A stretch of DNA of 36,587 nt from Acidobacteriota bacterium (GTDB lineage Bacteria; Actinomycetota; Acidimicrobiia; Acidimicrobiales; CADCSY01). The stretch spans positions 12,293 to 48,879 of the forward strand of contig JAEKLB010000039.1 in assembly GCA_019510095.1 (NCBI GenBank), in the 5' to 3' direction. Below, piece by piece: positions 4,901 through 26,934 of this stretch. A program made the translations under genes and the position numbers. Position 1 is the stretch's first letter; each line of letters opens with the position of its first letter. Below the pieces are notes generated by a model. That model was given only the letters and a program-made list of their open reading frames with translations, had not been told where the DNA came from and searched no databases.

Positions 4901-6283
4901 TTGGTTCATCCCAAGCGGGGTGCGTCCCGACGCGGGCTCGCCATCGCCGTCGTCCTCGGGCTGGTCTTCACGCTCTCGAGTACGGAGATGGCGGTCGCCA
5001 AGACCACCAAGAAGTGCGCCAAGGGCTATGTCAAGACCAAGGGCAAGTGCCGCAAGAAGGCGGCCGCGGCAACCACGACCAAGAAGGCCGCTACCACCAG
5101 CACCACGGCCACCGCCAGCCCGTCGTCGAACACCAACAAGGGCGTCATCAAGCTCGGCGTGATCAGCAGCGAGATCAGCAGCGCCAACGTGCCGATCCCG
5201 GCTGAGGGCAAGCAGATCGCCCAGGCGTGGGTCGACGCCACCAATGCCGCCGGCGGCATCAACGGCTACAAGTTCGAGCTCATCTACAAGAACGCCAACC
5301 GCGACTCCGCCCGCGCCTTGCAGGCCATCAAGGACCTGGACAAGGCCGGTGTCGTCGCCTTCACCGAGGGCGACGCCGGGTTCATGCCGTCGATCCGTGA
5401 CTACATGACCAAGGCGAACATCCCGGTCATCGGCGGCACGCCCTACACCAACGAGTTCGACTGGCACCCGATGTTCTTCCAGGTCCAGCCGGGCCAGGCC
5501 GAGGGCGTCTACGGCCAGGTGGCCGCCGCCCGCGACGTCGGCGCCAGGCACTTCCGGAACGTGTACTGCATCGAGGTCGCCGCCTGCGCCACCTCGGTGG
5601 CTGAGACCAAGTACGCGGCCGACCGCGAGGGCCTGAAGTTCTCTTCTGAGGGTGGCTCGGCGGTCGCGCCCGACAACACGGCGACGTGCCTGTCGGCCAA
5701 GAACGCTGGCGTCGACTTCTTCCAGTCGAACGGCCTGAACTTCGCCAACGTCATTCGTGACTGCGCTCGGCAGAACTACCACCCGACCTATGCGCAGGGC
5801 GGCCAAGCCAGCCAGGCCACCATCGACGCGGCCAAGGGCGAGAGCGTTGCCGGCAACCTCTACGAGTTCGGGATCTTCTACAACGGCCCCGAGGTCCAGC
5901 GGTTCAAGCAGGCCCTGGCCCACACCGACCAGAAGTTCGAGGACGGCACCGCCGGGCAGCAGTCGGTCCAGGTCTGGCTCGGCATGGAGATGATGGGAGC
6001 GATCACCAAGCGCCTCACCACCCCCGGCGTCCCGACCCGCCAGCAGTTCATCGACACGATCTACTCGATCAAGAGCGAGAACCTCGGCGGCCAGATCGCG
6101 CCGATCAACTACTCCGTCCAGAAGCCCGGCACCGGCAAGCACGCCACCAGCGACTGCTGGACCGAGCACATTCTCAAGGACGGCAAGATGTACCACATGG
6201 ACACCCACGGCCAGATCGTCACCAAGCTGACGTTCATCTGTGGCACGGGCTTCACCCTGAACGACCACGCCCCGCCCATGTGA
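4901..6283 (+). CDS. Secreted type I solute-binding protein (branched-chain amino acid/amide ABC family)
   Basis: A 460-residue extracytoplasmic binding protein of the LivJ/Peripla_BP_6 type, expected to capture a small solute for an ABC importer. The TTG start at 4901 is supported by a GCAGGGGGA ribosome site seven bases upstream. A signal peptide (KRGASRRGLAIAVVLGLVF...) probably ends at AVA33; there is no lipobox. Residues 34-80 are a Lys/Thr/Ala-rich linker holding a small motif with Cys39 and Cys50. The mature fold starts at VIKLGVISS and includes NAAGGINGYKFELIYKN. Several cysteines in the body are shared with its paralogue at 6401, suggesting disulfides. No permease or ATPase gene lies in the window, so its importer partner is elsewhere or absent. 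The ligand is unknown. Confidence 0.88.
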   Translation: MVHPKRGASRRGLAIAVVLGLVFTLSSTEMAVAKTTKKCAKGYVKTKGKCRKKAAAATTTKKAATTSTTATASPSSNTNKGVIKLGVISSEISSANVPIPAEGKQIAQAWVDATNAAGGINGYKFELIYKNANRDSARALQAIKDLDKAGVVAFTEGDAGFMPSIRDYMTKANIPVIGGTPYTNEFDWHPMFFQVQPGQAEGVYGQVAAARDVGARHFRNVYCIEVAACATSVAETKYAADREGLKFSSEGGSAVAPDNTATCLSAKNAGVDFFQSNGLNFANVIRDCARQNYHPTYAQGGQASQATIDAAKGESVAGNLYEFGIFYNGPEVQRFKQALAHTDQKFEDGTAGQQSVQVWLGMEMMGAITKRLTTPGVPTRQQFIDTIYSIKSENLGGQIAPINYSVQKPGTGKHATSDCWTEHILKDGKMYHMDTHGQIVTKLTFICGTGFTLNDHAPPM

Positions 6284-6340: not shown

Positions 6341-6383
6341 ACGGAACGACTCCCGGTCAGCTGACCGGGAGTCGTTCCGTTTT
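6341..6383 (+). terminator. Perfect 40-base palindrome followed by T4: intrinsic terminator
   Basis: Bases 6341-6360 and 6361-6380 are exact reverse complements with no spacer, centred on CAGCTG, and the right arm runs into TTTT (6380-6383). As RNA this is a very stable hairpin with a U tract, the standard intrinsic terminator form. It sits between the two solute-binding protein genes and ends only 17 bases before the second start codon, so it may also limit read-through into the paralogue. Confidence 0.85.
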
Positions 6384-6400: not shown

Positions 6401-7684
6401 ATGCGGGCGGCACGACCTCACCTTCGGCGCGGGCTCGCACTCGTCGTCGCCAGCGTGCTCGCGGTCCCCGTCGGCGGCGCCGGCACCGCGCTCGCGACGC
6501 CGGCCCGGCGGCGCCGGGCGGCCACGACCGCCGTCGCCAAGGGGATCATCCGCGTCGGCCTCATCGCCTCCGAGCACGGCGGCCGAGGCCAGCCGATCCC
6601 GCTGGAGGCCAAGCAGATCGCCGACGCGTGGGCCGCCATCCAGAATGCCGCGGGCGGGATCAACGGCTACCGGTTCCAGATCGTCTATCGCAACGTCGAC
6701 GGCGACGCCAGGAAGGCAGTGCAGGCCGTCCGCGAGATCGACGCCGCGGGCGCGCTCGCGCTGACCACTGGCGACGCGTCGGTGATGCCGGCCGTCGCCG
6801 ATCTGCTGGTCCAGCGTTCGCTCCCCGCCATCGGCGGCCAGCCCTACACGCCCGAGTGGGACTGGCACCCGATGCTGTTCCCAGTGGAGGCTGGCCCGGC
6901 TGCGGGGAGCTACGGCCAGGTCGCCGCCGCCCGCGATGTCGGCGCCACCCATTTCCGCAACGTGTACTGCGCCGAGCTCCCTGCCTGTCTCGAGTCGGTC
7001 AAGCCCACGAGGTATGCCGCGCAGCGCGAGGGCCTCCGGTTCACCGCGCAGGCCGCGCCCGGCACGGCCGCCGACTACACCGCGACCTGTGTGGCGGCCA
7101 AGGCCGATGACGCCGACTTCTTCCAGGCCAACGGGCTCGACTTCGCGGCCGTGGTCCGCGACTGCAGCCGCGTCGGGTACCACCCGATCTACGGCGTCGG
7201 CGGCTCGGCCAGCGCCGGGGTGATCGACCAGGCAAAGGGCGAGCGCCTTGCCGGGGACCTCTTCGAGGTCGGGGTGTTCTACGACGGCCCCGAGCTGGCC
7301 GCCTTCCGCCGGGCCCTCGCTCGTACGTCGTTCCGCGTTGCCGACGGCAGCGCCACCCAACGCTCGGTGCAGACCTGGCTCGCGTTGGAGATGATCGGCG
7401 CCATCGCCCGGCGCCTCCTCGTCGCCAAGCCGACCCGGAGCGACTTCCTCAACGCGGCCTACATGGTCAAGGGCGAGACCCTGGGCGGCCAGATCGCGCC
7501 CATGGACTACACGGTGCAACGGCCCGGGACTGGCGGCCATGCCGCCAGCGACTGCTGGACGGAGGACGTGGTGAAGGAGGGCCGTTACCTGCACATGGAC
7601 AAGAGCGGCGCGCCGGTCAGCCGCCTCACGTTCGTGTGCGGCACCGGGCTCCGCTACGACGACCACTCCCCACCCCACGAGTGA
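6401..7684 (+). CDS. Secreted type I solute-binding protein, paralogue of the preceding gene
   Basis: A 427-residue paralogue of the protein at 4901 with long matching stretches (NAAGGINGYRFQIVYRN, YGQVAAARDVGATHFRNVYC, ASDCWTE, FVCGTG). The signal peptide (RRGLALVVASVLAVPVGG) probably ends near ALA32. It lacks the Lys/Thr linker with the two extra cysteines, while the cysteines of the body are conserved. ATG 6401 fits the signal peptide, but there is no clear ribosome site and the terminator palindrome ends just upstream, so expression would rely on read-through or an unseen start. Duplication followed by divergence is the simplest history. The ligand is unknown and no transporter partner is nearby. 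Confidence 0.86.
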   Translation: MRAARPHLRRGLALVVASVLAVPVGGAGTALATPARRRRAATTAVAKGIIRVGLIASEHGGRGQPIPLEAKQIADAWAAIQNAAGGINGYRFQIVYRNVDGDARKAVQAVREIDAAGALALTTGDASVMPAVADLLVQRSLPAIGGQPYTPEWDWHPMLFPVEAGPAAGSYGQVAAARDVGATHFRNVYCAELPACLESVKPTRYAAQREGLRFTAQAAPGTAADYTATCVAAKADDADFFQANGLDFAAVVRDCSRVGYHPIYGVGGSASAGVIDQAKGERLAGDLFEVGVFYDGPELAAFRRALARTSFRVADGSATQRSVQTWLALEMIGAIARRLLVAKPTRSDFLNAAYMVKGETLGGQIAPMDYTVQRPGTGGHAASDCWTEDVVKEGRYLHMDKSGAPVSRLTFVCGTGLRYDDHSPPHE

Positions 7685-7717: not shown

Positions 7718-7747
7718 TTGTCAGTGACTGACATTCCGCGGTAGAGT
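7718..7747 (+). promoter_or_regulatory. Promoter of the acyl-CoA dehydrogenase/kinase operon
   Basis: TTGTCA (7718-7723, five of six to TTGACA) and TAGAGT (7742-7747, a TANNNT box) are spaced by 18 bases. The ribosome site ACAGGGAGA follows before ATG 7780. The 15-base palindrome at 7719-7733 covers the -35 box and part of the spacer. Confidence 0.6.
7719..7733. promoter_or_regulatory. Perfect palindromic operator TGTCAGTGACTGACA
   Basis: Seven-base arms (TGTCAGT/ACTGACA) flank one central G. The position over the -35 box is typical of a repressor site, and the operon encodes a TetR regulator at 10097-10726, the natural candidate to bind it. No second copy was seen in the window. Confidence 0.6.
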
Positions 7748-7779: not shown

Positions 7780-9063
7780 ATGGCATGGGATTTCTCGACT
7801 GAGCCGGAGTTCCAGGAGCAGCTCGACTGGGTGGAGCAGTTCTGCAAGGAGGAGATCGACCCCATCGATCTGCTGTTCCCGGGGGCAGCGAAATCCCGGG
7901 ACCCGAAGATGAAGGCGCTCTGCGACCCGCTCAAGCAGACCGTGAAGGACAAGGGGCTGTGGGCGCTGTTCCTCGACGAGGAGCTGGGCGGCCCCGGCTT
8001 CGGCCAGCTGAAGCTGGCGCTGCTCAACGAGGTGCTGGCCCAGCACGGCTCGGCGCCGGTGATCTTCGGGACCCAGGGCCCGGACACGGGGAACATGGAG
8101 ATCCTGGCGGCCCACGGCACACCCGAGCAGAAGGATCGCTGGCTCTACCCGCTCATGAACCAGGAGATCTGGTCGGCGTTCTCGATGACCGAGCCGCAGG
8201 GCGGGTCCGATCCCACGCTGTTCAAGACCACCTCGGTCAAGGAGGGCAACGAGTGGGTCATCAACGGCGAGAAGTGGTTCACGAGCTTCGGGAAGGAGGC
8301 CGACATCCTCCTGGTGATGTGCCAGAACGGCATCTTCATCGTCGAGCAGGGCACGCCTGGCGTCGAGTGGCTCAACGGCGCCGGCGCCCATGACCACGTC
8401 CGCTACAACAACGTGCGCGTTCCCCTCGACCATCTGCTCGGCCCCGAGGGCGGCGGGCGCATGCTGGCCCAGCGCCGGCTCGGCGGCGGCCGGATCCATC
8501 ACGCCATGCGAACCGTGGCCGCATGCAAGAAGGCCATCGACATGATGTGCGAGCGGGCCCTGTCACGCGAGTCGCACGGCAAGACGATCTCCGAGCACCA
8601 GATGGTGCAGGAGCAGATCGCCGACTCCTACTCGCAGTACCACATGCTCCGCCTGCTGGTGCTGTGGACGGCGTGGACGATCGACAACTCCTCGACCCGC
8701 GAGGCCCGGACCCAGATCGCCATGTGCAAGACCACCTGCGCGGAGATCCAGAAGGACATCATGTTCCGCGCCATCCACATGTTCGGCTCGCTCGGCGTCA
8801 CCCATCTCACGCCGCTGCAGCAGATGTGGGCGAGCGTGCCGACCCAGTTCATCATGGACGGCCCCAACGAGGTCCACAAGGTCACCATCTCCCGCAACGT
8901 GCTCAAGAGCTACCAGCCGCACGAGGGCAACTGGCCGACGCAGTTCCTCCCCGCGCTGCGGGAGGAGGCCAAGAAGAAGTTCGCCGGCCTCCTCGCCGAC
9001 GACCCCGAGCTGGCCGCACGCGTCGACAGCCTCGAGGCCGCCCAGTACGCCCGCATCTCATGA
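7780..9063 (+). CDS. Acyl-CoA dehydrogenase of the ACAD10/11 type
   Basis: A 427-residue FAD flavoprotein. Supporting motifs are the FAD/substrate strand FSMTEPQGGSDPT, the ACAD10/11-type helix GGGRIHHAMRTV, and the C-terminal MDGPNEVHK. The last motif puts Asp360 where typical acyl-CoA dehydrogenases have the catalytic Glu (EGTNEIQ); ACAD10/11 proteins share this DGPxEVH form. The next gene, overlapping by ATGA, is an APH-fold kinase. In animals the kinase and dehydrogenase domains are fused in ACAD10/ACAD11, and in Pseudomonas the pair is LvaA/LvaC, used on 4-hydroxyacyl-CoA. That role is inferred here from family and context. ATG 7780 has the ribosome site ACAGGGAGA at good spacing. Confidence 0.9.
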   Translation: MAWDFSTEPEFQEQLDWVEQFCKEEIDPIDLLFPGAAKSRDPKMKALCDPLKQTVKDKGLWALFLDEELGGPGFGQLKLALLNEVLAQHGSAPVIFGTQGPDTGNMEILAAHGTPEQKDRWLYPLMNQEIWSAFSMTEPQGGSDPTLFKTTSVKEGNEWVINGEKWFTSFGKEADILLVMCQNGIFIVEQGTPGVEWLNGAGAHDHVRYNNVRVPLDHLLGPEGGGRMLAQRRLGGGRIHHAMRTVAACKKAIDMMCERALSRESHGKTISEHQMVQEQIADSYSQYHMLRLLVLWTAWTIDNSSTREARTQIAMCKTTCAEIQKDIMFRAIHMFGSLGVTHLTPLQQMWASVPTQFIMDGPNEVHKVTISRNVLKSYQPHEGNWPTQFLPALREEAKKKFAGLLADDPELAARVDSLEAAQYARIS

Positions 9064-10100
9064 CCGACGCGCGAGCAGGCATCGAGCTCGACATCGGTGT
9101 GCTCGAGGACTGGATCGGCGACCGGCTGCCCGGCGCCGGCGAGCCGATGACGGCCGAGCGCCTCGGGGCGGGCAGCGGGATCGCCAACGCCCTCTTCTTC
9201 ATCCGGCGGGGCGGGCACCAGTGGGTGCTCCGGCGCCCGCCTGCCATCAAGAACCATCCCTCAGCCGCCAACACCGAGCGGGAGTGGCGCATCCTGCGGG
9301 CACTCGAGGGCACCTCGGTCCCCCACCCCACGGCCCGGCTCTTCTGCGACGACCCCGACGTCATCGGGGCCACCTTCATGATCATGGATGTGGTCGATGG
9401 CTTCACGCCCGGGGTCGAGGTCCCCGACTGGGTCGTCGACACACCGAACGGCCTCTACGACCTCGGCATGTCGTATGTCGACGGGCTCGTCGAGCTGGCC
9501 AAGGTCGACTGGGTGGCCAGCGGCCTCGAAGGGCTCGGCAAGCCCGAGGGGTTCCTCGAGCGCCAGGTCTCCCGCTGGGTCGGCCAGCTCGACGGCTACC
9601 GCGTCCGCCAGCTGCCCGAGGAGGCCTTCCTCACCGAGTGGCTCGAAGCCAACCGGCCGCCGATGAGCCCGGCCGCCATCATGCACGGCGACTACAGCCC
9701 CTTCAACGTGATGGCGGCCAACGACGCGCCGGTGCGCTTGGCGGCGATCATCGACTGGGACACCGGCACCATCGGCGACCCGCTGCTCGACATCGGCCAC
9801 CTCCTCGCCCGCTGGGTCCATCCGGGCGAGGACGGGCCGCTCACCCTGCCCACCGGTCCGCTGGACGGCTACCCGACCCGCAAGGAGATGGCCGCCCGCT
9901 ACGAGGAGCGCAGCGGGCGCGACCTCAGCGCCCTCCCCTATTACGAGGCACTCTCCCTGTTCAAGCTGGGCGTGATCCTCGAAGGCAACTACTCGCGGGC
10001 GTCCAAGGCCGGCGTGCCCGACAGCGAGAACCGGATGATCACCAGCGCGCCCCGGCTGTTCACGGTGGCGGCTGAGTTCGCCCGCGGGCAGAGGTCTTGA
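9060..10100 (+). CDS. APH-fold phosphotransferase, ACAD10/11 N-domain-like kinase
   Basis: A 346-residue kinase of the aminoglycoside phosphotransferase fold. The catalytic loop is MHGDYSPFNVM, with His209, Asp211 and Asn216; the metal-binding aspartate is Asp232 in IIDWDTGTIGDPLLD. The segment PHPTARLFCDDPDVIGATFMIMD is typical of the ACAD10/11 N-terminal-like branch rather than of antibiotic-resistance enzymes. ATG 9060 overlaps the dehydrogenase stop (ATGA) and the gene ends in a TTGA overlap with tetR, so tight coupling is expected. The likely role is phosphorylation of a hydroxyacyl-CoA before the partner dehydrogenase-fold enzyme acts. Drug-resistance function is unlikely in this setting. 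The fold is clear; the substrate is inferred. Confidence 0.87.
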   Translation: MTDARAGIELDIGVLEDWIGDRLPGAGEPMTAERLGAGSGIANALFFIRRGGHQWVLRRPPAIKNHPSAANTEREWRILRALEGTSVPHPTARLFCDDPDVIGATFMIMDVVDGFTPGVEVPDWVVDTPNGLYDLGMSYVDGLVELAKVDWVASGLEGLGKPEGFLERQVSRWVGQLDGYRVRQLPEEAFLTEWLEANRPPMSPAAIMHGDYSPFNVMAANDAPVRLAAIIDWDTGTIGDPLLDIGHLLARWVHPGEDGPLTLPTGPLDGYPTRKEMAARYEERSGRDLSALPYYEALSLFKLGVILEGNYSRASKAGVPDSENRMITSAPRLFTVAAEFARGQRS

Positions 10101-10726
10101 CCGAGACCTTCCAGGCCAAGAAGCGGCGGTACACCGCCGGCGAGATCACCCGCGTCGCCCTCCGGCTGTTCGGCGAGCGGGGCTTCGACGAGGTCACCGT
10201 CGATGAGATCGCTGCCGAGGTGGGCATCTCGTCGCGCACGTTCTTCCGGTACTTCGCCACCAAGGACGAGGTGCTCCTCCAGTACCAGCGCCGCCTCAAT
10301 GAGCGGATGATCAACGCGGTTGCCGGGCGACCACCCGAGGAGGGGCCGGTCACCGCCTTGCGCAACGCCTACCTGGTCACCTCGACGGTGCCGGCCGAGG
10401 ATCGGGAGGCGGTCGCCCTGCAGAGCCGGTTCCTGTTCTCGACGCGTGACCTGATCGCGCGCGCCCATGGCGAGCGGGCGGCCGACAACGGGCCCATCAT
10501 CGAGCTGCTGGCCCAGCGCATGGACGTCGATCCGGCCGTCGATCCCCGCCCCGAGACGATCGCCGTGAGCATGGGCGCAGCCGCCGGCGCCGCGTTCCAC
10601 CGCTGGGTCGCCGGCGGCGGCCGCGGTGACCCCGCCGACCTGATCGCGGCCGCCCTCGACCTGCTCGAGACCGGGCTCGCCTCCCTCGAGATCACCCCAC
10701 CCCGTCGACGAACGAGGAGCGCATGA
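10097..10726 (+). CDS. TetR-family transcriptional regulator
   Basis: A 209-residue repressor-type protein. The N-terminal helix-turn-helix is in FDEVTVDEIAAEVGISSRTFFRYFATKDEVLLQY, with the usual FRYF and K-D/E turn. The C-terminal ligand domain is variable, as expected. The TTG start at 10097 lies in the kinase stop (TTGA) and the stop overlaps the next ATG (ATGA), so the regulator is made with the enzymes. It most likely represses the operon at the palindrome 7719-7733 and is released by an acyl-CoA or acid intermediate; that is inference from position. Confidence 0.92.
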   Translation: MTETFQAKKRRYTAGEITRVALRLFGERGFDEVTVDEIAAEVGISSRTFFRYFATKDEVLLQYQRRLNERMINAVAGRPPEEGPVTALRNAYLVTSTVPAEDREAVALQSRFLFSTRDLIARAHGERAADNGPIIELLAQRMDVDPAVDPRPETIAVSMGAAAGAAFHRWVAGGGRGDPADLIAAALDLLETGLASLEITPPRRRTRSA

Positions 10727-11487
10727 CCAACCCCAGCTTCGACCTCACCGGCAAGGTTGCCGTCGTCACCGGCGGCAGCCGCGGCATCGGGCGAGCCATC
10801 GTCCAGGCCTACGCGGAGGCCGGCGCCGACGTCGTCATCGCCAGCCGCAAGCTCGACGCCTGCGAGGTGGCCGCCAAGGAGGTCGAGCAGTCGACGGGCC
10901 GCCGAGCGCTGGCAGTCGGCTGCCACGTGGCCTACTGGGACCAGTGCGATGCCCTCGTCGAGCGCACCTACGCCGAGCTCGGGCGCTGCGACATCCTCGT
11001 CAACAACGCTGGCATGTCGCCGCTCTACGACAAGCTCACCGACATCACCGAGGACTACTACGACAAGGTCCACGCGGTGAACCTCAAGGGGCCGTTCCGG
11101 CTGGCAGTGCAGTTCGGGGCGCGGATGGCCGAAGGCGACGGTGGCTCGATCATCAACGTCGGCACCATCGGCTCCCTGCGCCCGGGCAGCAGGGAGATCG
11201 TCTACGCCTGCGCCAAGGCCGGCCTCAACGCCCTCACCATCGCCATCGCCGAGGCCTACGGCCCCAAGGTCCGCTCCAACTGCCTCCTGCCGGGAGCGGT
11301 CATGACCGACATCGCCGAGTCCTGGAGCGAGGAGCGCAGGGCTGCCGCCGGCGCGGGCGCCCCGCTCAAGCGCCCCGGCTACGCCGCCGACTTCGTGGGA
11401 CCCGCCCTCTGGCTGGCCAGCGAGGCATCGGCCTTCATCACTGCCGACATCATCCGCGTCGACGGTGGTCAGTACCGCCAGATGTAG
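10723..11487 (+). CDS. Short-chain dehydrogenase/reductase
   Basis: A 254-residue NAD(P)-dependent oxidoreductase. The Rossmann loop TGGSRGIGR is at 16-24, NNAG at 94-97, and the catalytic Tyr161 and Lys165 in YACAKAG. The usual catalytic serine position holds Thr148. The C-terminus WLASEASAFITADIIRVDGGQYR is typical of classical SDRs of the FabG type. The ribosome site AACGAGGAGC supports ATG 10723. As the fourth gene of the operon it probably oxidises a hydroxyacyl-CoA or alcohol intermediate made by the kinase/dehydrogenase pair. The substrate is not determinable from sequence. Confidence 0.92.
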   Translation: MTNPSFDLTGKVAVVTGGSRGIGRAIVQAYAEAGADVVIASRKLDACEVAAKEVEQSTGRRALAVGCHVAYWDQCDALVERTYAELGRCDILVNNAGMSPLYDKLTDITEDYYDKVHAVNLKGPFRLAVQFGARMAEGDGGSIINVGTIGSLRPGSREIVYACAKAGLNALTIAIAEAYGPKVRSNCLLPGAVMTDIAESWSEERRAAAGAGAPLKRPGYAADFVGPALWLASEASAFITADIIRVDGGQYRQM

Positions 11488-11516
11488 CGGCAAGACCCGA
11501 CACCCGAGGGAGTTCC

Positions 11517-12308
11517 ATGCGCGTCGAAGGAAAGATCGTCGTCATCACCGGTTCCGGCTACGGCATCGGCAAGGGCTTGGCCGAGCGGTTCGTCACCGAG
11601 GGCGCCAAGGCGGTGGTGATCTCCGACATCAACGAGGAGCTGATGGCGTCGGTCGCCGAGACCCTCGGCATGCCCGCCATCGCCTGCAACGTGGCCGATC
11701 CGGCGGCGCTCGCCAACCTCATCGAACAGACGGAGCGCGAGATCGGTCCCATCGACCTGTTCTGCTCCAACGCCGCCTACGGCTTCGGTGGGCCGGTGCC
11801 GAACACGACAGGAAACCAGGGCGGGCTCGACGCGACCGAGGACGACTGGGAGCGGAGCTGGCAGATCAACGTCATGGCCCACATCCGGGCCGCGCGCCAG
11901 CTCATCCCGCTCATGCTCGAACGGGGCGGCGGCTACTTCCTCAACACCGTCTCGGCGGCCGGGCTCATCACGTCGATCTCCGGCGCGCCGTACACCGTGA
12001 CCAAGCACGCCGACATCGGCTGGGCCGAGTGGATCATGCTGAACTACGGCGACCAGGGCATCGGCGTGTCGTGCCTGTGCCCGACCGCCATCGCCACCAA
12101 GCCGGGCCAGTTCGACGGCAACGAGACCATCGGGTTGGTGCAGACGCCTGCCGAGGTCGCCCAGTACGTCGTCGACGGCCTCGACGAGGAGCGGTTCCTC
12201 ATCCTGCCCAACCCGGCGGTCGGCGGGTCGTTCCTGAAGAAGGCGACCGATTACGACGCCTGGCTGGCGCGCACCATCGCCCGGATCGGCGCCATGAAGG
12301 GCGAGTAG
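11517..12308 (+). CDS. Short-chain dehydrogenase/reductase
   Basis: A 263-residue SDR, 29 bases after the previous gene, with its own ribosome site CCGAGGGAG before ATG 11517. Motifs are TGSGYGIGKG (11-20), a variant SNAAYG instead of NNAG, and Ser146, Tyr159 and Lys163 (SGAPYTVTKHA). Asp37 after the second strand suggests NAD rather than NADP. It differs clearly from the upstream SDR, lacks the C-terminal DGG motif and has an extended C-terminus (FLKKATDYDAWLARTI). It is the last gene of the operon and converges on the CoA-transferase gene with a seven-base gap. Confidence 0.9.
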   Translation: MRVEGKIVVITGSGYGIGKGLAERFVTEGAKAVVISDINEELMASVAETLGMPAIACNVADPAALANLIEQTEREIGPIDLFCSNAAYGFGGPVPNTTGNQGGLDATEDDWERSWQINVMAHIRAARQLIPLMLERGGGYFLNTVSAAGLITSISGAPYTVTKHADIGWAEWIMLNYGDQGIGVSCLCPTAIATKPGQFDGNETIGLVQTPAEVAQYVVDGLDEERFLILPNPAVGGSFLKKATDYDAWLARTIARIGAMKGE

Positions 12309-12315
12309 CCGGCCG

Positions 12316-14751
12316 CTACTGGGCCTTGCACGCCTCCTGGTCGAAGACGACGCCGGCTTCCTTCAGCCGAGTGATCTCCTCGTCGGAGTAGCCGTACTCC
12401 TGAAGGAGGGCATCGGTGTGCTCTCCCGTGAGGCACGGGATGCCGAGCCTCCCTGGCGTCTCGGAGAACGTGGCGGGCAGGCCTTCGCGCACGATCCGAC
12501 CGAACGTCGGCTCGTCGATCTCGAAGGTCAGACCGCTCTCCCGCAAGCCGGGGTCGTCGACGGCGAACTGGGCGGCGCCGACCTCGGTGACCTTGACGCA
12601 GGCGATGCCCTTCGGGATCAGCTCGTCCTCCCACGCCTGGGCCGGCTTGGCCTGGAAGACGGCCTCCAGTGCCTTGATGAGTGCCTCGTCGTGCTCCTTG
12701 CGGGCCGCGACATCGGCGAACTGGGAATCATTGGCCAGGTCGCTCTGGCCCAGGGCGGCCACGAGCGCCTGCCAGGCCTTCTCGGTCGGGGCGGCCAGGC
12801 ACACGTGGCCCTCGGCCGCCGGATAGCAGCGGTAGAGGGCGTTGAGGCCCCACTGCTCAGGGTCCATGAGCGGGAGCGGGGGCTTCCCCTCGTAGGTGAT
12901 GAAGTCGTCGGAGGTCCCGTAGAGGTTGCCGTTGAGCATGGTGGTGCTGACGAACTGGCCCTGACCGGTGCGGTGCTGGTGGTAGATGGCGAAGAGCAGT
13001 CCCGACAGCACGCCGAGCGAGGCGTTGGCGTCGCCGGTGACGATCGAGTTGATGCGGGGCGCCAGGACTACGCGCAGCTCGTCGACGCTCATGCCGTCGG
13101 CCATTGCCGGGTCGAGCCACATGCCGCTCTGGCGGTGGAAGCCACCGGCGACGGCCGTGGCGATCTGGGCGTACATGGCCCGGTGCGACTGCGGACCGTC
13201 GTACCCGTAGCCGCCCGCATGCAGGTACACGATGCCCGGGTTGATCTCCTTCGCCTTGTCGTAGCCGAGGTTCATCTTCTCGGCCACGCCCGGCCGGAAG
13301 CCGCACACGAACACGTCGGCGGTCTCCAGGATCTTGTGGATCACGGCCTGGCCCTCGGGCTTGCGGAGGTCGATGGCGAAGCTCTCCTTGCCTTCCATCA
13401 CCTTCGAGCCACCGGTCTCCCGGATGCCGAAGCTCCAGCGCTGCGGGTCGCCCCGCTGGTCCTCGATCTTGATGACGCGAGCGCCGAGGGCCGCAGCCAA
13501 GGTCGTGCCGTTGGGCATGGCGTAGAAGTAGCCGAACTCGACGATCGTGATGCCCTCGAGTGGATGCTTGGGCAGGGGCGCAGCCCCTGCGGGTGAGGAC
13601 GAGCGCCGCACCTCTCTCGTCTGCTCGCCGATCGCTGGCGCCGAGCGGTCGATGACCGAGGGCGACCCGAGGAAGCGGGCGATCGGGCCGATCTCCTTGA
13701 TCGTGCCAAGGCGAGGATCCTCGACCTCGACGACGTGGTGGTTGTGCAACACCTGCGCGTGTTGCATCGCCTCTTCAGTCGTGCCGGCAATCTCACAGGC
13801 GACGTCGGGCTCGGCCAGCACACGTTCCATCAGCTCGGCCGCGGTCATCTGCCGCACTGCTTCCCACACATGCTGCTCGAACTCGTCTGCGTCCTCAGCC
13901 GACTGGAAGTACGGCGCGTCCTTGAACCTGGGATCCTCCAGCACGTGCGCGACGCCGCACGCCCGCGCGAGCGCTTGGAGCTGGTGCGGGAGCAAGGTGC
14001 AGAACACCATCCACCGCCCGTCCTTGGTGCAGGGGATGAAGGTGTACCGGCTGGCGGACACACCGACCTTCGGTTGCTCACCCGATGCTGCCTGCTTGGC
14101 CATGGCCTGGCGCATGGCCTGGATCGTCACCACGCCGAAGTAGTCGAACGGGCTCAGGCCCTGGTACATGCTGGCCTCGACCCGCTGCCCCTTGCCCGTC
14201 TTGTCGCGGACGATCAGGGCCGCCAGCACCGACGACACACCCATGTGGGCGGCCCCGTGGCTGCCCAACAGCTCGTTGGCGAACTGAGGCCCGGGCCGGT
14301 AGGCGAACATGCCGCGAGTGAAGACGCCCGACTTCGCTGCGACGATCGCCTCGTAGGCGGGCAGGTGGGCGTAGGGGCCGGTTGACGCGAAGCCGCGGAT
14401 CGCGCAGTACACCAGCGCCGGGTTCGACGCCTTCAGCGCCTCGTACCCGAGGCCCCAGCCGTCGGTGACACCCGTCCCGAACCCGTCGATGAACACATCG
14501 GCCTTGGCGATCAGGTCGCGGGCCTGCGCCTGTCCCTCGTTCGTGCGGAGGTCGCAGACCTGGCTGTCCTTGCCCCGGTTCCATGCCAGGAACCCGTTCA
14601 CGTTGCCGCTGCGCAACGGGTCACCCTCCGGCGGCTCGAGCTTCACGACGTGGGCGCCGTTGTCGGCCAACATCATCCCGATCATCGAGCCGGCGATGCT
14701 GCCGGCCCCCGCCTCGATCACGGTGAGGCCGTCACAGATGCGCTGGGTCAT
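12316..14751 (-). CDS. Two-domain class III CoA-transferase (CaiB/BaiF)
   Basis: An 811-residue fusion of two class III CoA-transferase domains (about 1-375 and 398-811) joined by a linker with RRSSSPAGAAPLP. Each half has the family start (GLTVIEAGAGSIAG; GITIVEFGYFYAMP) and the strand before AAL/FAIxxxHRTGxGQ. Aligning on that strand puts Asp574 (VTGDANASLG) of the second half at the catalytic aspartate that forms the acyl-enzyme, while the first half has Ser164 (LLGSHGAAHMG). One half is therefore probably catalytic and one structural. It would move CoA between acyl groups to activate an acid. Start ATG 14751 has AAGGGGGA upstream. The thioesterase gene lies 63 bases upstream on the same strand, suggesting an operon. 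Confidence 0.9.
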   Translation of the reverse strand: MTQRICDGLTVIEAGAGSIAGSMIGMMLADNGAHVVKLEPPEGDPLRSGNVNGFLAWNRGKDSQVCDLRTNEGQAQARDLIAKADVFIDGFGTGVTDGWGLGYEALKASNPALVYCAIRGFASTGPYAHLPAYEAIVAAKSGVFTRGMFAYRPGPQFANELLGSHGAAHMGVSSVLAALIVRDKTGKGQRVEASMYQGLSPFDYFGVVTIQAMRQAMAKQAASGEQPKVGVSASRYTFIPCTKDGRWMVFCTLLPHQLQALARACGVAHVLEDPRFKDAPYFQSAEDADEFEQHVWEAVRQMTAAELMERVLAEPDVACEIAGTTEEAMQHAQVLHNHHVVEVEDPRLGTIKEIGPIARFLGSPSVIDRSAPAIGEQTREVRRSSSPAGAAPLPKHPLEGITIVEFGYFYAMPNGTTLAAALGARVIKIEDQRGDPQRWSFGIRETGGSKVMEGKESFAIDLRKPEGQAVIHKILETADVFVCGFRPGVAEKMNLGYDKAKEINPGIVYLHAGGYGYDGPQSHRAMYAQIATAVAGGFHRQSGMWLDPAMADGMSVDELRVVLAPRINSIVTGDANASLGVLSGLLFAIYHQHRTGQGQFVSTTMLNGNLYGTSDDFITYEGKPPLPLMDPEQWGLNALYRCYPAAEGHVCLAAPTEKAWQALVAALGQSDLANDSQFADVAARKEHDEALIKALEAVFQAKPAQAWEDELIPKGIACVKVTEVGAAQFAVDDPGLRESGLTFEIDEPTFGRIVREGLPATFSETPGRLGIPCLTGEHTDALLQEYGYSDEEITRLKEAGVVFDQEACKAQ

Positions 14752-21597: not shown

Positions 21598-22359
21598 TCA
21601 GTGGCCGACCCAGCGGGGATCGCGCTTCTCGATGAAGGCGCGGGGGCCCTCCGTGTAGTCCTCGGTGGTGGCCAACCTGTTCTGGGCCTCGCGGCTGGCC
21701 GCCCAGATCTCGACCGGGTCGGCGTCGAGCGACTCGAGGGCGATGCGCCGGGTCTCCCGCACCGCCAGCGGCGCGTTGGTGTTGATCCGTTCGGCAAGGG
21801 CCATGGCCGCGGTGACGGCCTGCCCGGCTTCGACGAGATCACTCACCATGCCCAGGCGGAAGGCGGTCTCGGCATCGATGGGATCGCCGGTGAGCAGCAT
21901 CTTCAGCGCGACCTGTTGGGGCAGGACGCGAGGAAGGTGCACCAGGCCACCGCCGGCGGCCACCAGTGACCGCTTGACCTCGGGCAGGCCGAAGCGGGCG
22001 GCCTTCGATGCCACGATGAGGTCGCAGGCCAGCGCCAGCTCACAGCCGCCGGCCAGGGCGGCGCCGTCGACGGCAGCGATGACCGGCTTGGTGCGGGGCC
22101 GGCGCACGAACCCAGCGAAGCCGCCCCGCTCGGTGCGCATCTCCCCATCGCGGCCAGCGCTGAACAGCTTTAGGTCGGCACCGTCACAGAACACCGATCC
22201 GGCACCGGTGAGCACACCTGCCCACAACTCGTCGTCTCCCTCGAGCCGGTCGACCGCAGCTTCCAGGCCGGTGGCGACGTCACCGTTCACCGCGTTGCGG
22301 GCCTCGGGGCGGTTGATGGTGATCAGGGCCGTGCGGCCGCGGACGTCGACGTCGATCAC
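21598..22359 (-). CDS. Enoyl-CoA hydratase/isomerase (crotonase)
   Basis: 253 residues from GTG 22359, which gives the usual crotonase beginning IDVDVRGRTALITINRPEARNAV. Both catalytic glutamates are present: Glu107 (ALAGGCELALACD) and Glu127 (FGLPEVKRSL), and the oxyanion loop is FCDGADLKLF. It should hydrate an enoyl-CoA. A longer frame upstream to 22506 exists but would run into the preceding gene and adds a non-crotonase stretch. It is last in the minus-strand operon with the CoA-transferase, thiolase-like and Zn-ribbon genes, 76 bases after the latter. It converges on the protease gene with a six-base gap. Confidence 0.9.
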   Translation of the reverse strand: MIDVDVRGRTALITINRPEARNAVNGDVATGLEAAVDRLEGDDELWAGVLTGAGSVFCDGADLKLFSAGRDGEMRTERGGFAGFVRRPRTKPVIAAVDGAALAGGCELALACDLIVASKAARFGLPEVKRSLVAAGGGLVHLPRVLPQQVALKMLLTGDPIDAETAFRLGMVSDLVEAGQAVTAAMALAERINTNAPLAVRETRRIALESLDADPVEIWAASREAQNRLATTEDYTEGPRAFIEKRDPRWVGH

Positions 22360-22435
22360 CGCCAGATCATGACACCCGGCCTCGTTCTCTGGTCTCCCCA
22401 CGACCGCCGCGCGCAGCGCGGTACCGAAGAGCGGT

Positions 22436-22786
22436 TCAGGCCGGCGTGAACACGGGGACGAGTCGCCCGGCGCGCTCCTCGAAGGTGGCGCCCACGGTGT
22501 CGCCAATGGCGGTGCCGGACGCGGCGTGGGCCATCACCCGGACGCCCTCATCGAGATCGACGAGCACGAGGGTGTAGGGCACCAAGGGTCGCCACTCGTC
22601 GCTCGGCGCCCGGTGCACGACGGTCGTCGCCACCACCCGACCGCGGCCGGCGCTCGCCACCTCGTCGGGATCGAGCCGCCCGCACCGCGGGCAGAAGGGG
22701 CGCTGGAAGTACCAGACGTTGCCGCAGCCGCCGCACGACAGCACCACCAGCTGCGGCTCCCCGGTGGTCCAGTCGGCAACGGTCAC
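22436..22786 (-). CDS. Zn-ribbon/OB-fold (DUF35) acyl-CoA-binding partner
   Basis: 116 residues. The N-terminal zinc ribbon is CGGCGNVWYFQRPFCPRCG, with two CxxC pairs; the OB-fold follows (GRGRVVATTVVHRAP, VPYTLVLVDLDEGVRVMA). DUF35 proteins form complexes with thiolase-like enzymes, as in the steroid side-chain aldolase Ltp2-ChsH2, where the domain is needed for activity. Here the GTG start is locked to the thiolase-like gene's stop by a GTGA overlap, strongly suggesting the same kind of complex. It probably has no catalysis of its own. Confidence 0.9.
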   Translation of the reverse strand: MTVADWTTGEPQLVVLSCGGCGNVWYFQRPFCPRCGRLDPDEVASAGRGRVVATTVVHRAPSDEWRPLVPYTLVLVDLDEGVRVMAHAASGTAIGDTVGATFEERAGRLVPVFTPA

Positions 22787-23919
22787 GGGAGCGCCACCAC
22801 CATCGAGGTGTGCGACGACATGACGCCACCATCGCCGTGCAGCAGAGCAACGTCGGGTTGGCCAGGGATCTGACGGGCTCCCGCCCGTCCCGTCAGCTGG
22901 CGTTGGAGCTCGGCCATGTGTGACATCGCACCGGCAACGCCGCAGTGGCCGTACGAGAGGAGGCCACCGTGGGTGTTGAGCGGCACCGCACCGCCCGGTG
23001 AGAAGTGCCCGTCCCGGGCCAGGGCGCCGGCCTGGCCCGGCGGTGCCAGCCCGATCTCCTCGAGCAGCAGGGCGAGGGTCACGGTGAAGCTGTCGTAGAC
23101 CGCCGCGTACCGGATCCGGTCGAGCCCGATGCCCGCTTCGTCGAGCGCCATCCGCGACGACGGCCCCGCGCCGTAGGACAGCAGATCGGGCACGACCGAG
23201 ACGTGCTGGTGCTGGTGGGCCTGCCCGGAGCCGAGCACCCGGAGACAGTGGTCGTTCACCTGGTCGCCGGTCACGACCATCGCCGCACCACCGTCGGAGA
23301 CGGGGCAGCAGTCAAGGAGCTTCAGCGGCTCGGCCACGGCGCGCGAGACCAGCACGTCCTCGACCGTGATCGGCTCGCGGTAGTGGGCTCCGGGGCTGTC
23401 GACCGCGTGCGAGCGCATGGCCACTGCCAACTCGGCCAGGTCGGCCTCCCCGGCACCTCGACCGTCGAGGTAGGCCGACGCGATCAACCCGTAGTAGGCC
23501 GGGACGGTGGTGCCCAGCGGCACCTCGTAACGAGGGTGGCCCACCTGGGCGAGCGCCTGGATGGCGCTGTCGCGGGTCTGGCCCGACAGGCGATTCTCGC
23601 CGGCGACGATCAGCAGCCGGCTGGCCGCCTTGCTCTGGATCACGAAGTGGGCGGTCGCCGCCATGGCCAGGCCGGTGGCGCCACCGAGCTGCAGGGCCGC
23701 TGCGTAGCGAGGGCGGATGCCGAAGTGCTCGGCGAACACCGTTGCCAGCATCAGGTGCGGCATCGTCGTCGAGTAGCCGCAGATGATCCCGTCGATGTCA
23801 GCACGCTCGAGGCCGGCGTCGGCCAATGCGCCGGTCGCTGCCTGGGTCATCAGACCGAGGGTGTCCTGCCCCTCGTGCCTGCCGAACGCCGTCGCGAAGG
23901 ATCCTGCGATGTAGCTCAT
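22783..23919 (-). CDS. Thiolase-like (SCP-x/Ltp type) protein lacking the nucleophilic cysteine
   Basis: 378 residues with the thiolase fold: IAGSFATAFGRHEG at the start, LQLGGATGLAMAATA at the nucleophile helix, VSDGGAAMVV in the middle and NTHGGLLSYGHCGVAGA at the C-terminal active-site loop. The nucleophile helix has Gly (79-80) where thiolases have Cys, so ordinary thiolysis through an acyl-enzyme is not expected. Members of this branch that pair with DUF35 proteins include Ltp2-type retro-aldolases that use tyrosines; YDSF in AAVYDSFTVTLALL is a candidate. Overlaps with both neighbours (ATGA with the CoA-transferase, GTGA with DUF35) tie it into the operon. Aldolase activity is inferred, not shown. 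Confidence 0.88.
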   Translation of the reverse strand: MSYIAGSFATAFGRHEGQDTLGLMTQAATGALADAGLERADIDGIICGYSTTMPHLMLATVFAEHFGIRPRYAAALQLGGATGLAMAATAHFVIQSKAASRLLIVAGENRLSGQTRDSAIQALAQVGHPRYEVPLGTTVPAYYGLIASAYLDGRGAGEADLAELAVAMRSHAVDSPGAHYREPITVEDVLVSRAVAEPLKLLDCCPVSDGGAAMVVTGDQVNDHCLRVLGSGQAHQHQHVSVVPDLLSYGAGPSSRMALDEAGIGLDRIRYAAVYDSFTVTLALLLEEIGLAPPGQAGALARDGHFSPGGAVPLNTHGGLLSYGHCGVAGAMSHMAELQRQLTGRAGARQIPGQPDVALLHGDGGVMSSHTSMVVALP

Positions 23920-25082
23920 GCGGTGAGAGCAGTGATCTCGTCGTCGCCGAGGTCGAGCTCCCGCAGCACGGCCGCGGTGTGCTCACCGAGGTCAGGGACC
24001 TTGCGGTACTCGGCCTCGTAACCCTCGATGGTGATCGGCGGCAGCAGCACCGGCACGGGGCCGACCGAGGTCGGCGTGTCGCGCCAGCGGTTGCGCGCCG
24101 CCAGCTGCGGATGCGAGAGGAGGTCGACCGACGTACGGACGCGCCCGTTGGCGATCCCGGCCGACTCGAGCAGGGCCATCGCTTCCTCGGTGCTGAGCAT
24201 GGCCAGCCGGTCAGCGACCACGGCGTCGACCTCGGTCCGGTGACGGGCACGCCCTTCGGCGCTGGCGAACCGCTCGTCGGCCGCCGCGTCAGGGCGCCCC
24301 AACGCGTTGGCCAGGCGCACCCACTCCCGGTCGTTCTGCACGCCGAGCACGACCACGGTGCCATCGGCGGTGGTGAAGCCGTCGTACGGCACCAGCGACG
24401 GGTGCCCGAGGCCGTGCGGCTCATGGGGCTTGCCCGTCGAGCGGCTGTAGAGCGTGCTGAAGGTCATCCATTCGGCGACGGTGTCGAGCATGGCGATCGA
24501 CAGCGACGCGCCCTCCCCCGTGCGCTCCCGCCGCAGGAGGGCGGCGAGCACGCCACTGAACGCGTAGGCCCCAGCCGAGAGGTCGGCCACCGACGTGCCT
24601 GCCTTGGCCAGCACCCCGGGCTTGCCGGTCACCGAAGCCAGGCCACCCTCGCACTGCACCAGGAGGTCGTAGGCCCGCTTGTCCGCGTAGGGACCATCGG
24701 GTCCGTAGCCGCTGATGTCACAGACCACGAGACGGGGGTTGCGGGCCCGCAACGAGCCGGCATCGAGGCCGAGCCGGGCGGCGGCGCCGGGGCTCAGGTT
24801 CTGGACGAACACGTCGGCCCGATCGATCAGCCGCAGGACGACCTCCCGGGCGGCGGGATCCTTTACGTCGAGCGCCACCGACTCCTTGCCCCGGTTGAGC
24901 CAGACGAAGTACGTGGCCAGCCCGTCGACGAGGCTGTCGTAGGTGCGGGCGAAGTCCCCGCCGTCGGGGCGCTCGATCTTGATGACCCGGGCGCCCATGT
25001 CGAGCAGCTGGCGGGTGGCATAGGGCGCGGCGACGGCGTGCTCCATGGTGATGACCGTCATGCCCTCCAGCGGGGCGGTCAT
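23916..25082 (-). CDS. Class III CoA-transferase (CaiB/BaiF)
   Basis: A 388-residue single-domain CoA-transferase. It starts LEGMTVITMEHAVAAPYATRQLLDMGARVIKIERP, has NRGKESVALDVK, and carries Asp167 (TSVADLSAGAYAFSG) at the catalytic aspartate position. The C-terminal half shows RTSVDLLSHPQLAARNRW and DLGEHTAAVLRELG-like family motifs. It would activate the pathway acid by transferring CoA. It is first in a four-gene minus-strand operon with the thiolase-like, DUF35 and crotonase genes. ATG 25082 has GAAGGGG nine bases upstream. It diverges from an acyl-CoA dehydrogenase across a 62-base region with palindromes. Confidence 0.92.
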   Translation of the reverse strand: MTAPLEGMTVITMEHAVAAPYATRQLLDMGARVIKIERPDGGDFARTYDSLVDGLATYFVWLNRGKESVALDVKDPAAREVVLRLIDRADVFVQNLSPGAAARLGLDAGSLRARNPRLVVCDISGYGPDGPYADKRAYDLLVQCEGGLASVTGKPGVLAKAGTSVADLSAGAYAFSGVLAALLRRERTGEGASLSIAMLDTVAEWMTFSTLYSRSTGKPHEPHGLGHPSLVPYDGFTTADGTVVVLGVQNDREWVRLANALGRPDAAADERFASAEGRARHRTEVDAVVADRLAMLSTEEAMALLESAGIANGRVRTSVDLLSHPQLAARNRWRDTPTSVGPVPVLLPPITIEGYEAEYRKVPDLGEHTAAVLRELDLGDDEITALTA

Positions 25083-25120
25083 CGGCTGGGCCCCTTCATC
25101 GGCCGGCGAGCGTAGGCGCT

Positions 25121-25143
25121 GCCGATCGGCGCAATACTGCGCC
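25121..25143. promoter_or_regulatory. Overlapping palindromes in a divergent promoter region
   Basis: GCCGATCGGC (25121-25130) is a perfect ten-base palindrome. It overlaps GGCGCA-ATAC-TGCGCC (25128-25143), a six-base-arm inverted repeat that ends one base before the GTG start of the acyl-CoA dehydrogenase. A weak -10-like AATACT (25133-25138) lies inside the second repeat. A shared operator for the two divergent acyl-CoA units is possible. Confidence 0.4.
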
Positions 25144-25144
25144 G

Positions 25145-26311
25145 GTGGAGCGAACCGATCCCCAGGTGGCCGACGAGATCGTCGGGACGGTGAAGCGGTT
25201 CGTCGAGCGAGAGGTGCTCCCCGTCGCGGTGGCCCTCGAGCACGCCGATGAATACCCGACCGACATCGTGGAGGGCATGGCCGCCCTCGGCATCTTCGGC
25301 GCGACCATCCCGGTGGAGTACGGCGGCCTGGGGCTCGACATCCTGACCTACGCCCGGATCACCGAGGCGCTGTCGGCCGGCTGGATGTCGCTCTCGGGCG
25401 TGATCAACACCCACGTGATGGCGGCGCTGCTCATCACCCGCCATGGCACCGACGAGCAGCGGAGCCGGCTCCTCCCCCGGATGGCCACCGGCGAGCTCCG
25501 GGGTGCCCTCTCGCTCTCGGAGCCCGATGCCGGCAGCGACACCCGCAACCTGCGCTGCCGGGCCGAGCCCGACGGTGACGAGTACGTCATCACTGGCACC
25601 AAGATGTGGGTCACCAACGGCGAGCGGTCCGGGATCGTCGCCCTGGCCGCGAGGACAGCCGAGGGCATCACCTGCTTCCTCGTCGAGAAGGAGCCCGGTC
25701 CCTGCCCCGAGCGAGCCAGCCTGGTTGCGAGCCGCCACATCGACAAGCTGGGCTACCGGGGCGTCGAGACGGTCGAGATGGTCTACGACGGCCATCGGGT
25801 CCCCGCCTCGTCCGTGCTCGGCGGCCCGGCCAACCTCGGCCGCGGCCTCCATCTGATCCTCGCCGGCCTCGAGCTCGGTCGCATCAACATCGCCGCCCGC
25901 GCCTGCGGTGTCGCCACGGCCGCCTACGAGGCAGCCATGGCCTATGCCCAGCAGCGGGTGACCTTCGGCCAACCGATCGCCCAGCACCAGGCCATCCAGT
26001 TCAAGCTGGCCGACATGGCCACCAAGCTCGAAGCCTCCCGCCTCCTCACGCGGAGCGCAGCGGAGCGGTTCCAGCGGGGCGAGCGGGCCGACGTCGAGGC
26101 GGGCATGGCGAAGCTGTTCGCGTCCGAGTCGGCGCTCGAGATCTCCATGGAAGCCATGCGCATCCACGGCGGCTACGGCTACGCCACGGAGCTGCCGGTC
26201 GAGCGCTTCTACCGGGACGCGCCCCTCATGGTGATCGGCGAGGGGACCAACGAGATCCAGCGCATGGTCATCGCCCGCGGCCTGCTCCGCCGGTGGGCCG
26301 AGGAGCACTGA
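25145..26311 (+). CDS. Acyl-CoA dehydrogenase
   Basis: 388 residues, a standard acyl-CoA dehydrogenase. FAD and substrate motifs are ALSLSEPDAGSDT and ITGTKMWVTNG; then VTFGQPIAQHQAIQFKLADM; the C-terminal RIHGGYGYATELPVERFYRD and GEGTNEIQRM, with Glu366 as catalytic base. It introduces the 2,3 double bond in an acyl-CoA and passes electrons to ETF. GTG 25145 gives the usual N-terminal length; no ribosome site is visible, so the mRNA may be leaderless. It is divergent from the CoA-transferase operon and probably acts in the same pathway, between activation and hydration. Confidence 0.94.
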   Translation: MERTDPQVADEIVGTVKRFVEREVLPVAVALEHADEYPTDIVEGMAALGIFGATIPVEYGGLGLDILTYARITEALSAGWMSLSGVINTHVMAALLITRHGTDEQRSRLLPRMATGELRGALSLSEPDAGSDTRNLRCRAEPDGDEYVITGTKMWVTNGERSGIVALAARTAEGITCFLVEKEPGPCPERASLVASRHIDKLGYRGVETVEMVYDGHRVPASSVLGGPANLGRGLHLILAGLELGRINIAARACGVATAAYEAAMAYAQQRVTFGQPIAQHQAIQFKLADMATKLEASRLLTRSAAERFQRGERADVEAGMAKLFASESALEISMEAMRIHGGYGYATELPVERFYRDAPLMVIGEGTNEIQRMVIARGLLRRWAEEH

Positions 26312-26318
26312 TGGCCGG

Positions 26319-26340
26319 CCGCCCCCTCTACCAGGGGCGG
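26319..26340. terminator. Hairpin between convergent genes, possible bidirectional terminator
   Basis: CCGCCCC (26319-26325) and GGGGCGG (26334-26340) form a seven-pair GC stem with an eight-base loop. It lies just after the acyl-CoA dehydrogenase stop and spans the stop codon of the convergent gene. There is no T tract, so termination strength is doubtful. Confidence 0.35.
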
Positions 26341-26870
26341 AGGCCCGGGATCGGCACCCGGGGCGTGCAGACCACGACGGGCATCTCGCGGGCGTTACCG
26401 GCAGCCCGCTTCTCGTAGACCTCGTACTCCGGGATCCGGTCCTTGATGTACGACCAGATCTCGTCACGCTCGTCACCGGAAGCGGTGTAGGTGTCGCACG
26501 AATGCCGGCGCCGGTTGATGGTGAGCCACACCAACGGATGCGCCTGGAGGTTGAGGTACCAGTCGGGGTGCTTCGCCGCGCCCCCGACCGAGCCCACGAT
26601 GACCACCCGGCCGTCGTGCACGTAGTACCCGAGCGCCTTGTCGCGCAGCTCACCCGTGGTTCGGCCCACGGTCGTGAGCAGGAGCGTGGGGATGTACTCG
26701 AGGCCCCGGTTCACCCGGGTGGCCCAGGTGACGAGCGAGAGGCCGGTGTAGCGGACCAAGGCATTCTCGACCGGCGTGGTCAGGCCGGCCTTGCCGAGGA
26801 CGTTGAACCAGGCTCCCTCGGGCGGTGGCCACCGTCGGGTCGGGCGGGCCGGGGCGCCTTCGTCTGCCAC
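26328..26870 (-). CDS. Deazaflavin (F420)-dependent nitroreductase family protein (DDN type)
   Basis: 180 residues from GTG 26870. The family signature is clear: TLLLTTVGRTTGELRDKALG, then DGRVVIVGSVGGAAKHPDWYLNLQAHPLVWL, the DDN/FGD-like split-barrel that binds F420. It probably reduces a quinone, enone or similar compound with reduced F420. A longer upstream frame (to 27131) would overlap the divergent crotonase and has no family similarity, so it is not used. TAGCGT eight bases upstream of GTG suggests a leaderless mRNA. It converges on the acyl-CoA dehydrogenase. Confidence 0.88.
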   Translation of the reverse strand: MADEGAPARPTRRWPPPEGAWFNVLGKAGLTTPVENALVRYTGLSLVTWATRVNRGLEYIPTLLLTTVGRTTGELRDKALGYYVHDGRVVIVGSVGGAAKHPDWYLNLQAHPLVWLTINRRRHSCDTYTASGDERDEIWSYIKDRIPEYEVYEKRAAGNAREMPVVVCTPRVPIPGLRPW

Positions 26871-26878
26871 GGTCCGAG

Positions 26879-26884
26879 ACGCTA
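26879..26884 (-). promoter_or_regulatory. -10 box of a likely leaderless promoter (TAGCGT)
   Basis: A minus-strand TANNNT hexamer lies eight bases upstream of the GTG start at 26870, and there is no ribosome site. The spacing is slightly longer than the ideal six to seven bases. Confidence 0.4.
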
Positions 26885-26934
26885 CCGAAACGGGTGGCCG
26901 GACGAGGCGGCGACGCTCTGACAGGCTGCGGGCT

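Follow-up and report, generated by a model that had tools for sequence, protein, structure and literature searches.

Mammalian ACAD10 and ACAD11 and the bacterial proteins LvaA and LvaC are reported to act on 4-hydroxy fatty acids by phosphorylation and elimination (PMC12440821, PMC6692424). The lva operon of levulinic acid catabolism and its Pseudomonas citronellolis counterpart encode a separate kinase, acyl-coenzyme A (CoA) dehydrogenase (ACAD), and short-chain dehydrogenase/reductase (SDR) together. Here we describe a five-gene operon at positions 7780-12308 of a 36,587-nucleotide stretch of contig JAEKLB010000039.1 (assembly GCA_019510095.1, an Acidobacteriota bacterium placed by GTDB in the Acidimicrobiales); the whole stretch is called the window. 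All five genes lie on the plus strand and encode, in order, an ACAD, a kinase, a TetR regulator, SDR1, and SDR2. The conserved, regulated operon is real, and it is a variant of the ACAD10/11-LvaAC kind, likely with the corresponding chemistry. With a probability of roughly 0.7, we read it as a self-regulated catabolic operon that brings a CoA-joined 4-hydroxy (or 4-oxo) carboxylic acid into beta-oxidation. This 4-hydroxyacyl-CoA route is the best reading because the recognition residues are complete, the kinase is not of an antibiotic type, and a regulator and SDRs are joined to the enzyme pair.

Organization of the operon

All coordinates are window positions, and searches of the own genome cover a 2.95-Mb assembly. 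The operon and its upstream element comprise the following features:

7719-7733, no strand assigned: inverted repeat TGTCAGTGACTGACA, probable TetR operator, 46 bases before the ACAD start
7780-9063, plus strand: acyl-CoA dehydrogenase of the ACAD10/11/LvaC type, 427 amino acids (Pfam, PDB matches, pocket residues)
9060-10100, plus strand: APH-fold kinase of the ACAD10/11 N-terminal type, 346 amino acids, with a 4-base overlap between its ATG and the ACAD stop
10097-10726, plus strand: TetR regulator with an MftR-type C-terminal domain, 209 amino acids, TTG start (TetR_N, TetR_C_14)
10723-11487, plus strand: SDR1, 254 amino acids, proposed 4-oxoacyl-CoA/4-hydroxyacyl-CoA oxidoreductase in an LvaD-like role (adh_short, sibling loci)
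11517-12308, plus strand: SDR2, 263 amino acids, second oxidoreductase (adh_short), starting 29 bases past SDR1

All Pfam assignments are above cut-off, namely Acyl-CoA_dh N, M, and C, APH, TetR_N with TetR_C_14, and adh_short twice. The content of G and C at third codon positions is high across the five genes (0.91-0.955). Three junctions are formed by 4-base overlaps, ATGA between ACAD and kinase, TTGA between kinase and TetR, and ATGA between TetR and SDR1. The original prediction, made from the letters of the sequence, had joined all the genes in this manner; this is borne out at the three junctions, including that of ACAD and kinase, and fails between SDR1 and SDR2, which are separated by a 29-base gap (11488-11516). 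The sequence forms that it had named are present, GRIHHAMR and DGPNEVH in the ACAD and a complete HGD/IDW site in the kinase, the latter as HGDYSPFN and IDWDTG.

The operon resembles lva in encoding a separate kinase, ACAD, and SDR together and shares its ACAD pocket residues with the lva-like clusters of Burkholderia and Azoarcus. It differs from lva in several respects: the kinase is about 30% identical to the lva-like kinases and belongs to another clade, the regulator is a TetR rather than the sigma54-type LvaR, an extra SDR is present, and the operon lacks a synthetase. The family DUF6285 (PF19802), which we take to be that of LvaB, is absent from the own genome. The P. citronellolis region also lacks lvaB (PMC6692424). 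With mammalian ACAD10 and ACAD11, the locus shares the active-site residues of kinase and ACAD as well as the ACAD fold. The mammalian domains are fused, whereas the window encodes two proteins in a bacterial operon with its own regulator, and its ACAD lies in a sister branch.

The kinase belongs to a separate actinobacterial clade

In sequence comparisons with the PDB, the kinase scores 183 bits against 9o56, 130 against 3dxp, and 109 against ACAD11; its Pfam APH score is 106.5 bits. At the aligned sites it carries RERDN, which covers the counterparts of D220, N225, and R176 together with the helix-C Arg-Glu pair; the catalytic Asp and Asn and the Arg residues reported to touch CoA are thereby conserved. 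R86 of the ACAD11 paper has no exact counterpart by number, and the Arg preceding the helix-C Glu was scored in its place. We propose from these features that the protein is a 4-hydroxyacyl-CoA kinase.

The names of its family include aminoglycoside phosphotransferase, and its fold is common to APH and choline kinases, which would fit a kinase acting on an unrelated small molecule (an antibiotic, a sugar, or a choline-like compound) with an ACAD beside it by accident. The scores of 24 bits against a macrolide kinase and 22 against viomycin kinase speak against this when set beside the 183, 130, and 109 bits above, as do those on the NCBIfam antibiotic models APH(3') (24.3 bits, cut-off 205) and Mph(A) (19.2 bits, cut-off 550). 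Moreover, an ACAD adjoins 79 of the 143 related kinase loci gathered. We consider such an unrelated role hardly credible. Both scores and residues agree with the earlier assignment to the ACAD10/11 N-terminal type and not with an antibiotic or sugar kinase; a grouping with antibiotic kinases was looked for and is not seen. The genes had also been described as a split operon. They are indeed separate, but the frequency of ACAD adjacency makes this arrangement ordinary for bacteria. A scan for small open reading frames directly downstream of the kinases gave nothing convincing. In contrast to these 79 loci, the bacterial enzymes of the ACAD10/11-Lva type with tested activity that we found in the literature come only from P. 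putida and B. pseudomallei.

In the kinase tree, the window protein falls into a 10-member actinobacterial clade with a value of 100 in the Shimodaira-Hasegawa-like approximate likelihood ratio test (SH-aLRT). By the relatives of its kinase, the window falls among the Actinomycetota, near Acidimicrobiia. This clade lies apart from the group containing ACAD11, 3dxp, and the lva-like kinases of Burkholderia and Azoarcus, whose clusters stand in for authentic P. putida LvaA and LvaC in our trees. The equivalence with LvaA and LvaC put forward in the original prediction is therefore right in kind and does not extend to orthology, since both window proteins occupy separate branches outside the lva-like and ACAD11 sequences.

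The dehydrogenase carries the ACAD11 phosphate pocket

Six sites, numbered by ACAD11, were compared: 626, 631, 633, 634, 637, and 753. The window ACAD has R, R, H, H, R, and D at these positions, identical to mouse ACAD11, and so has all the residues that define the 4-phosphoacyl-CoA pocket of ACAD11 (R626, R631, H634, R637, and D753). In the ACAD11 cryo-EM structure, R626, H634, and R637 bind the 4-phosphate and D753 is catalytic (PMC12440821). These four diagnostic residues are kept in 63 of 69 scorable ACADs adjoining related kinases. The nearest PDB entries by sequence are the ACAD11 structures 8v3u and 8v3v (203.9 and 201.6 bits), and the nearest folds to the ACAD model are 4hr3 and ACAD11. 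The AlphaFold models of kinase and ACAD are confident, with mean predicted local distance difference test values of 91 (90.7) and 88, respectively; their alignments were built without rows from the plasmid collection.

We propose that this ACAD is a 4-phosphoacyl-CoA eliminase yielding 2-enoyl-CoA, judging from its pocket. The ACAD fold is common to many conventional dehydrogenases, and the protein could accordingly be pictured as an ordinary alpha,beta-dehydrogenase feeding the electron-transfer flavoprotein, with the kinase as a regulator or bystander. The catalytic Asp and the R/H/R phosphate-binding set make this very unlikely: ACAD10/11, which have that set, show no activity on unsubstituted C6-C22 acyl-CoAs (PMC12440821). 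Two conventional ACADs of the own genome lack the pocket set and read WRSYRE and SRTIME at the same six sites.

In the ACAD tree, the window ACAD, ACAD11, and the ACADs from the lva-like clusters of Burkholderia and Azoarcus are united in a 57-row branch (SH-aLRT 100), apart from the conventional ACADs. Within it, the window protein sits in a separate 34-row set (SH-aLRT 100). A second kinase and ACAD with the full pocket residues are encoded on contig C15 of the own genome. An LvaD-like SDR (40%) and a homologue of the synthetase lie close by, and this genome may contain two such systems.

Sibling loci and exchange of the ACAD partner

On plasmid pRHL2 of Rhodococcus jostii RHA1, the genes are arranged as kinase-TetR-SDR1-ACAD-SDR2, with the same 4-base overlaps from kinase through TetR to SDR1. 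Thus, all five gene types recur in another class. The four-gene set kinase-TetR-SDR1-ACAD is also present in Rhodococcus yunnanensis and Nocardia flavorosea. Given this recurrence, complete on pRHL2 and partial elsewhere, the five-gene set is more than a chance assembly. In Rhodococcus sp. DMU1, Nocardia sp. BSTN01, and Streptomyces brasiliensis, genes for an acyl-CoA synthetase and an enoyl-CoA hydratase lie near those for kinase and ACAD; no SDR1 adjoins the pair in S. brasiliensis.

SDR1 is 62-68% identical to its counterparts in five sibling loci and 35% identical to the SDR of the Azoarcus lva-like cluster, and its relatives (47-58%) adjoin many other, more distant kinases of the ACAD10/11 type. 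SDR2 is 45% identical to the fifth gene of the RHA1 cluster. Among the matches listed from 98 genomes of the own order or closer, no other kinase exceeds 46% identity; closer kinases are found on Rhodococcus plasmids and in other classes. This patchy distribution suggests that the module may have spread by transfer.

Members of the kinase clade are paired with two kinds of ACAD. An ACAD with the ACAD11 residues accompanies the kinase in the window, DMU1, BSTN01, and S. brasiliensis. In RHA1, R. yunnanensis, N. flavorosea, and two near-identical Acidimicrobiia loci, the partner is a distant ACAD with Trp at 637 that shares about 31-35% identity with the window protein. At four loci beside window-clade kinases, this subtype combines Arg at 633 with Trp at 637. 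As one kinase clade pairs with two ACAD subtypes, the partner must have been replaced by the other subtype at least once. More than one exchange is not established: the approximately unbiased test weakly rejects the kinases of the Trp-637 group as a single clade (p 0.036), a group defined after the tree was seen. The two subtypes offer a natural experiment on how pocket residues set substrate choice. We tentatively suggest, at less than even odds, that the locus represents a dehydroxylation module that is mobile, autoregulated, and separate from both lva and ACAD10/11. Its conserved kinase-SDR-TetR core would have been combined anew with two ACAD subtypes and would take gamma-hydroxyls off different acyl-CoAs, perhaps those of terpenoid or steroid side chains.

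A related possibility is that the same phosphorylate-and-eliminate chemistry serves a bulky steroid or terpenoid acyl-CoA, or a hydroxyl other than that at C4, on xenobiotics, terpenoids, or sterol side chains. After 3dxp, the top Foldseek matches of the kinase model are 25-hydroxy steroid kinase (25-HSK) structures, 9fsg and 9ft5. 25-HSK is reported to participate in the ATP-dependent dehydration of a tertiary steroid alcohol, so phosphorylation before dehydration serves steroids too (PMC8449060). Siblings of the operon reside on Rhodococcus plasmids, and the DMU1 locus encodes a KshA_C Rieske oxygenase and an enoyl-CoA hydratase that scores well on EchA19, below its cut-off. The window kinase and 25-HSK share the APH-type fold and this strategy, but are distant in sequence (30 bits, compared with 183 for 9o56), and the substrate of 25-HSK is a free steroid alcohol, not an acyl-CoA. 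The pocket residues are the same as in ACAD11, a 4-phosphoacyl-CoA enzyme, and steroid-like genes occur in one sibling neighbourhood only. We therefore regard a steroid-like or non-C4 substrate as unlikely.

A conserved palindrome precedes the operon

The palindrome TGTCAGTGACTGACA at 7719-7733 is perfect, with 7-nucleotide arms and a 1-nucleotide spacer. Allowing up to two mismatches, the window contains no other match, with 0.01 expected from shuffles. In 8 of 9 loci including the window, a consensus, TGWCAGNNNCTGWCA, is found 20-107 bases ahead of the first gene with no more than one mismatch; counting the two near-identical Acidimicrobiia loci as one gives 7 of 8. Elsewhere in these loci it is rare. 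Because the loci also served to refine the consensus, the values for each of them are somewhat favourable. RHA1 has only a two-mismatch site, which shuffles reach in 6% of cases. Its position upstream of 8 of 9 sibling operons makes the palindrome the likely TetR operator. Nocardia sp. BSTN01 has a second copy, with one mismatch, in the space between its divergent synthetase and TetR genes, and this links the synthetase to the same regulator. The palindrome upstream of the operon and its siblings, with this copy before the BSTN01 synthetase, is newly found here.

TetRs of the sibling loci are 42-49% identical to that of the window. The window protein resembles MftR, the mycofactocin regulator, which binds long-chain acyl-CoA (PMC8728441), in its TetR_C_14 domain and in having a palindromic operator upstream of the controlled operon. 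It scores 106.8 bits on the NCBIfam MftR model TIGR03968, below the equivalog cut-off of 224.9, and its palindrome TGTCAGTNACTGACA is unlike the published MftR operator, T-N2-GGCA-N5-TGCC-N2-A (PMC8728441). The protein is a probable acyl-CoA-responsive autorepressor. A search for an unlinked regulon in the own genome gave one further two-mismatch site only, and a reversed control gave a similar count. That site (contig C83, 382-396) is at the start of another MftR-like TetR gene, followed by a major facilitator superfamily transporter gene.

Proposed pathway and CoA activation

Protein families, residues, gene set, and operator conservation are observed; we infer which reactions take place and in which direction, as well as effector and substrate, as follows. 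SDR1 would interconvert 4-oxoacyl-CoA and 4-hydroxyacyl-CoA, and the kinase would phosphorylate the 4-hydroxyl of the acyl-CoA. The ACAD would then expel the phosphate via Asp360 and a redox-active flavin adenine dinucleotide, giving 2-enoyl-CoA with no net oxidation, and ordinary hydratases and thiolases would take on this product. TetR would repress from the 7719-7733 palindrome until released by an acyl-CoA. Published recognition residues are all present, so the 4-hydroxyacid pathway anticipated in the original prediction holds as the best reading, with its substrate still conjectural. A search of the literature for a substrate of the RHA1 pRHL2 or DMU1 systems found none.

Several points weigh against this pathway. 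We know of no assayed member of the kinase clade or the ACAD branch, and the kinase, in its separate clade, shares only about 30% identity with the lva-like kinases. The resemblance of SDR1 to the LvaD-like SDR is modest, and the own genome has a 59% SDR1 paralogue (contig C83) with no kinase beside it. Five sibling ACADs have Trp in place of R637, so that use of the ACAD11 pocket need not be general for the module. Lastly, the operon lacks a CoA-activating enzyme.

As first noted, an acyl-CoA synthetase is missing from the operon, and none was found in those window genes that were examined; a synthetase encoded elsewhere is the probable source of CoA activation. Pairwise identity among the sibling synthetases is 65-75%. 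Acyl-CoA synthetase homologues are numerous in the own genome, but none is a clear orthologue of these, the best match reaching 39%. The candidate activator named earlier was the adjoining CoA-transferase (12316-14751), a two-domain family III protein of 811 amino acids. Its participation would add to the 4-hydroxyacyl-CoA pathway rather than replace it. It adjoins the operon, and proteins of its family are encoded in several sibling neighbourhoods. However, the gene is on the opposite strand, convergent with the operon, and its far-side promoter has no operator, the sole window match being that at 7719-7733. The sibling CoA-transferases are only distantly similar (about 26-30%), compared with 65-75% among the synthetases, and three siblings carry a synthetase. 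This role thus finds no regulatory or strand support and appears improbable. The operator copy before the BSTN01 synthetase favours a synthetase over the CoA-transferase as activator.

If the pathway is correct, phosphorylation-driven dehydroxylation reaches beyond levulinate and 4-hydroxy fatty acids. The operon marks out a branch for which a regulator and a predicted operator are at hand, and R. jostii RHA1, with its counterparts on pRHL2, is a workable host.

Neighbouring genes

Directly upstream of the operon, on the same strand, lie two tandem ABC substrate-binding protein genes (Peripla_BP_6, 4901-6283 and 6401-7684), possibly an uptake system. Between them is a perfect 40-base palindrome (6341-6380, 20-nucleotide arms, no spacer), possibly a terminator or attenuator. 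On R. rhodochrous plasmid pGD02.2.1, three Peripla_BP_6-type genes are upstream of a related kinase-ACAD pair. Further CoA-ester genes are found at 21598-27657 of the window, encoding two enoyl-CoA hydratases, a thiolase-like protein, a CoA-transferase, and another ACAD.

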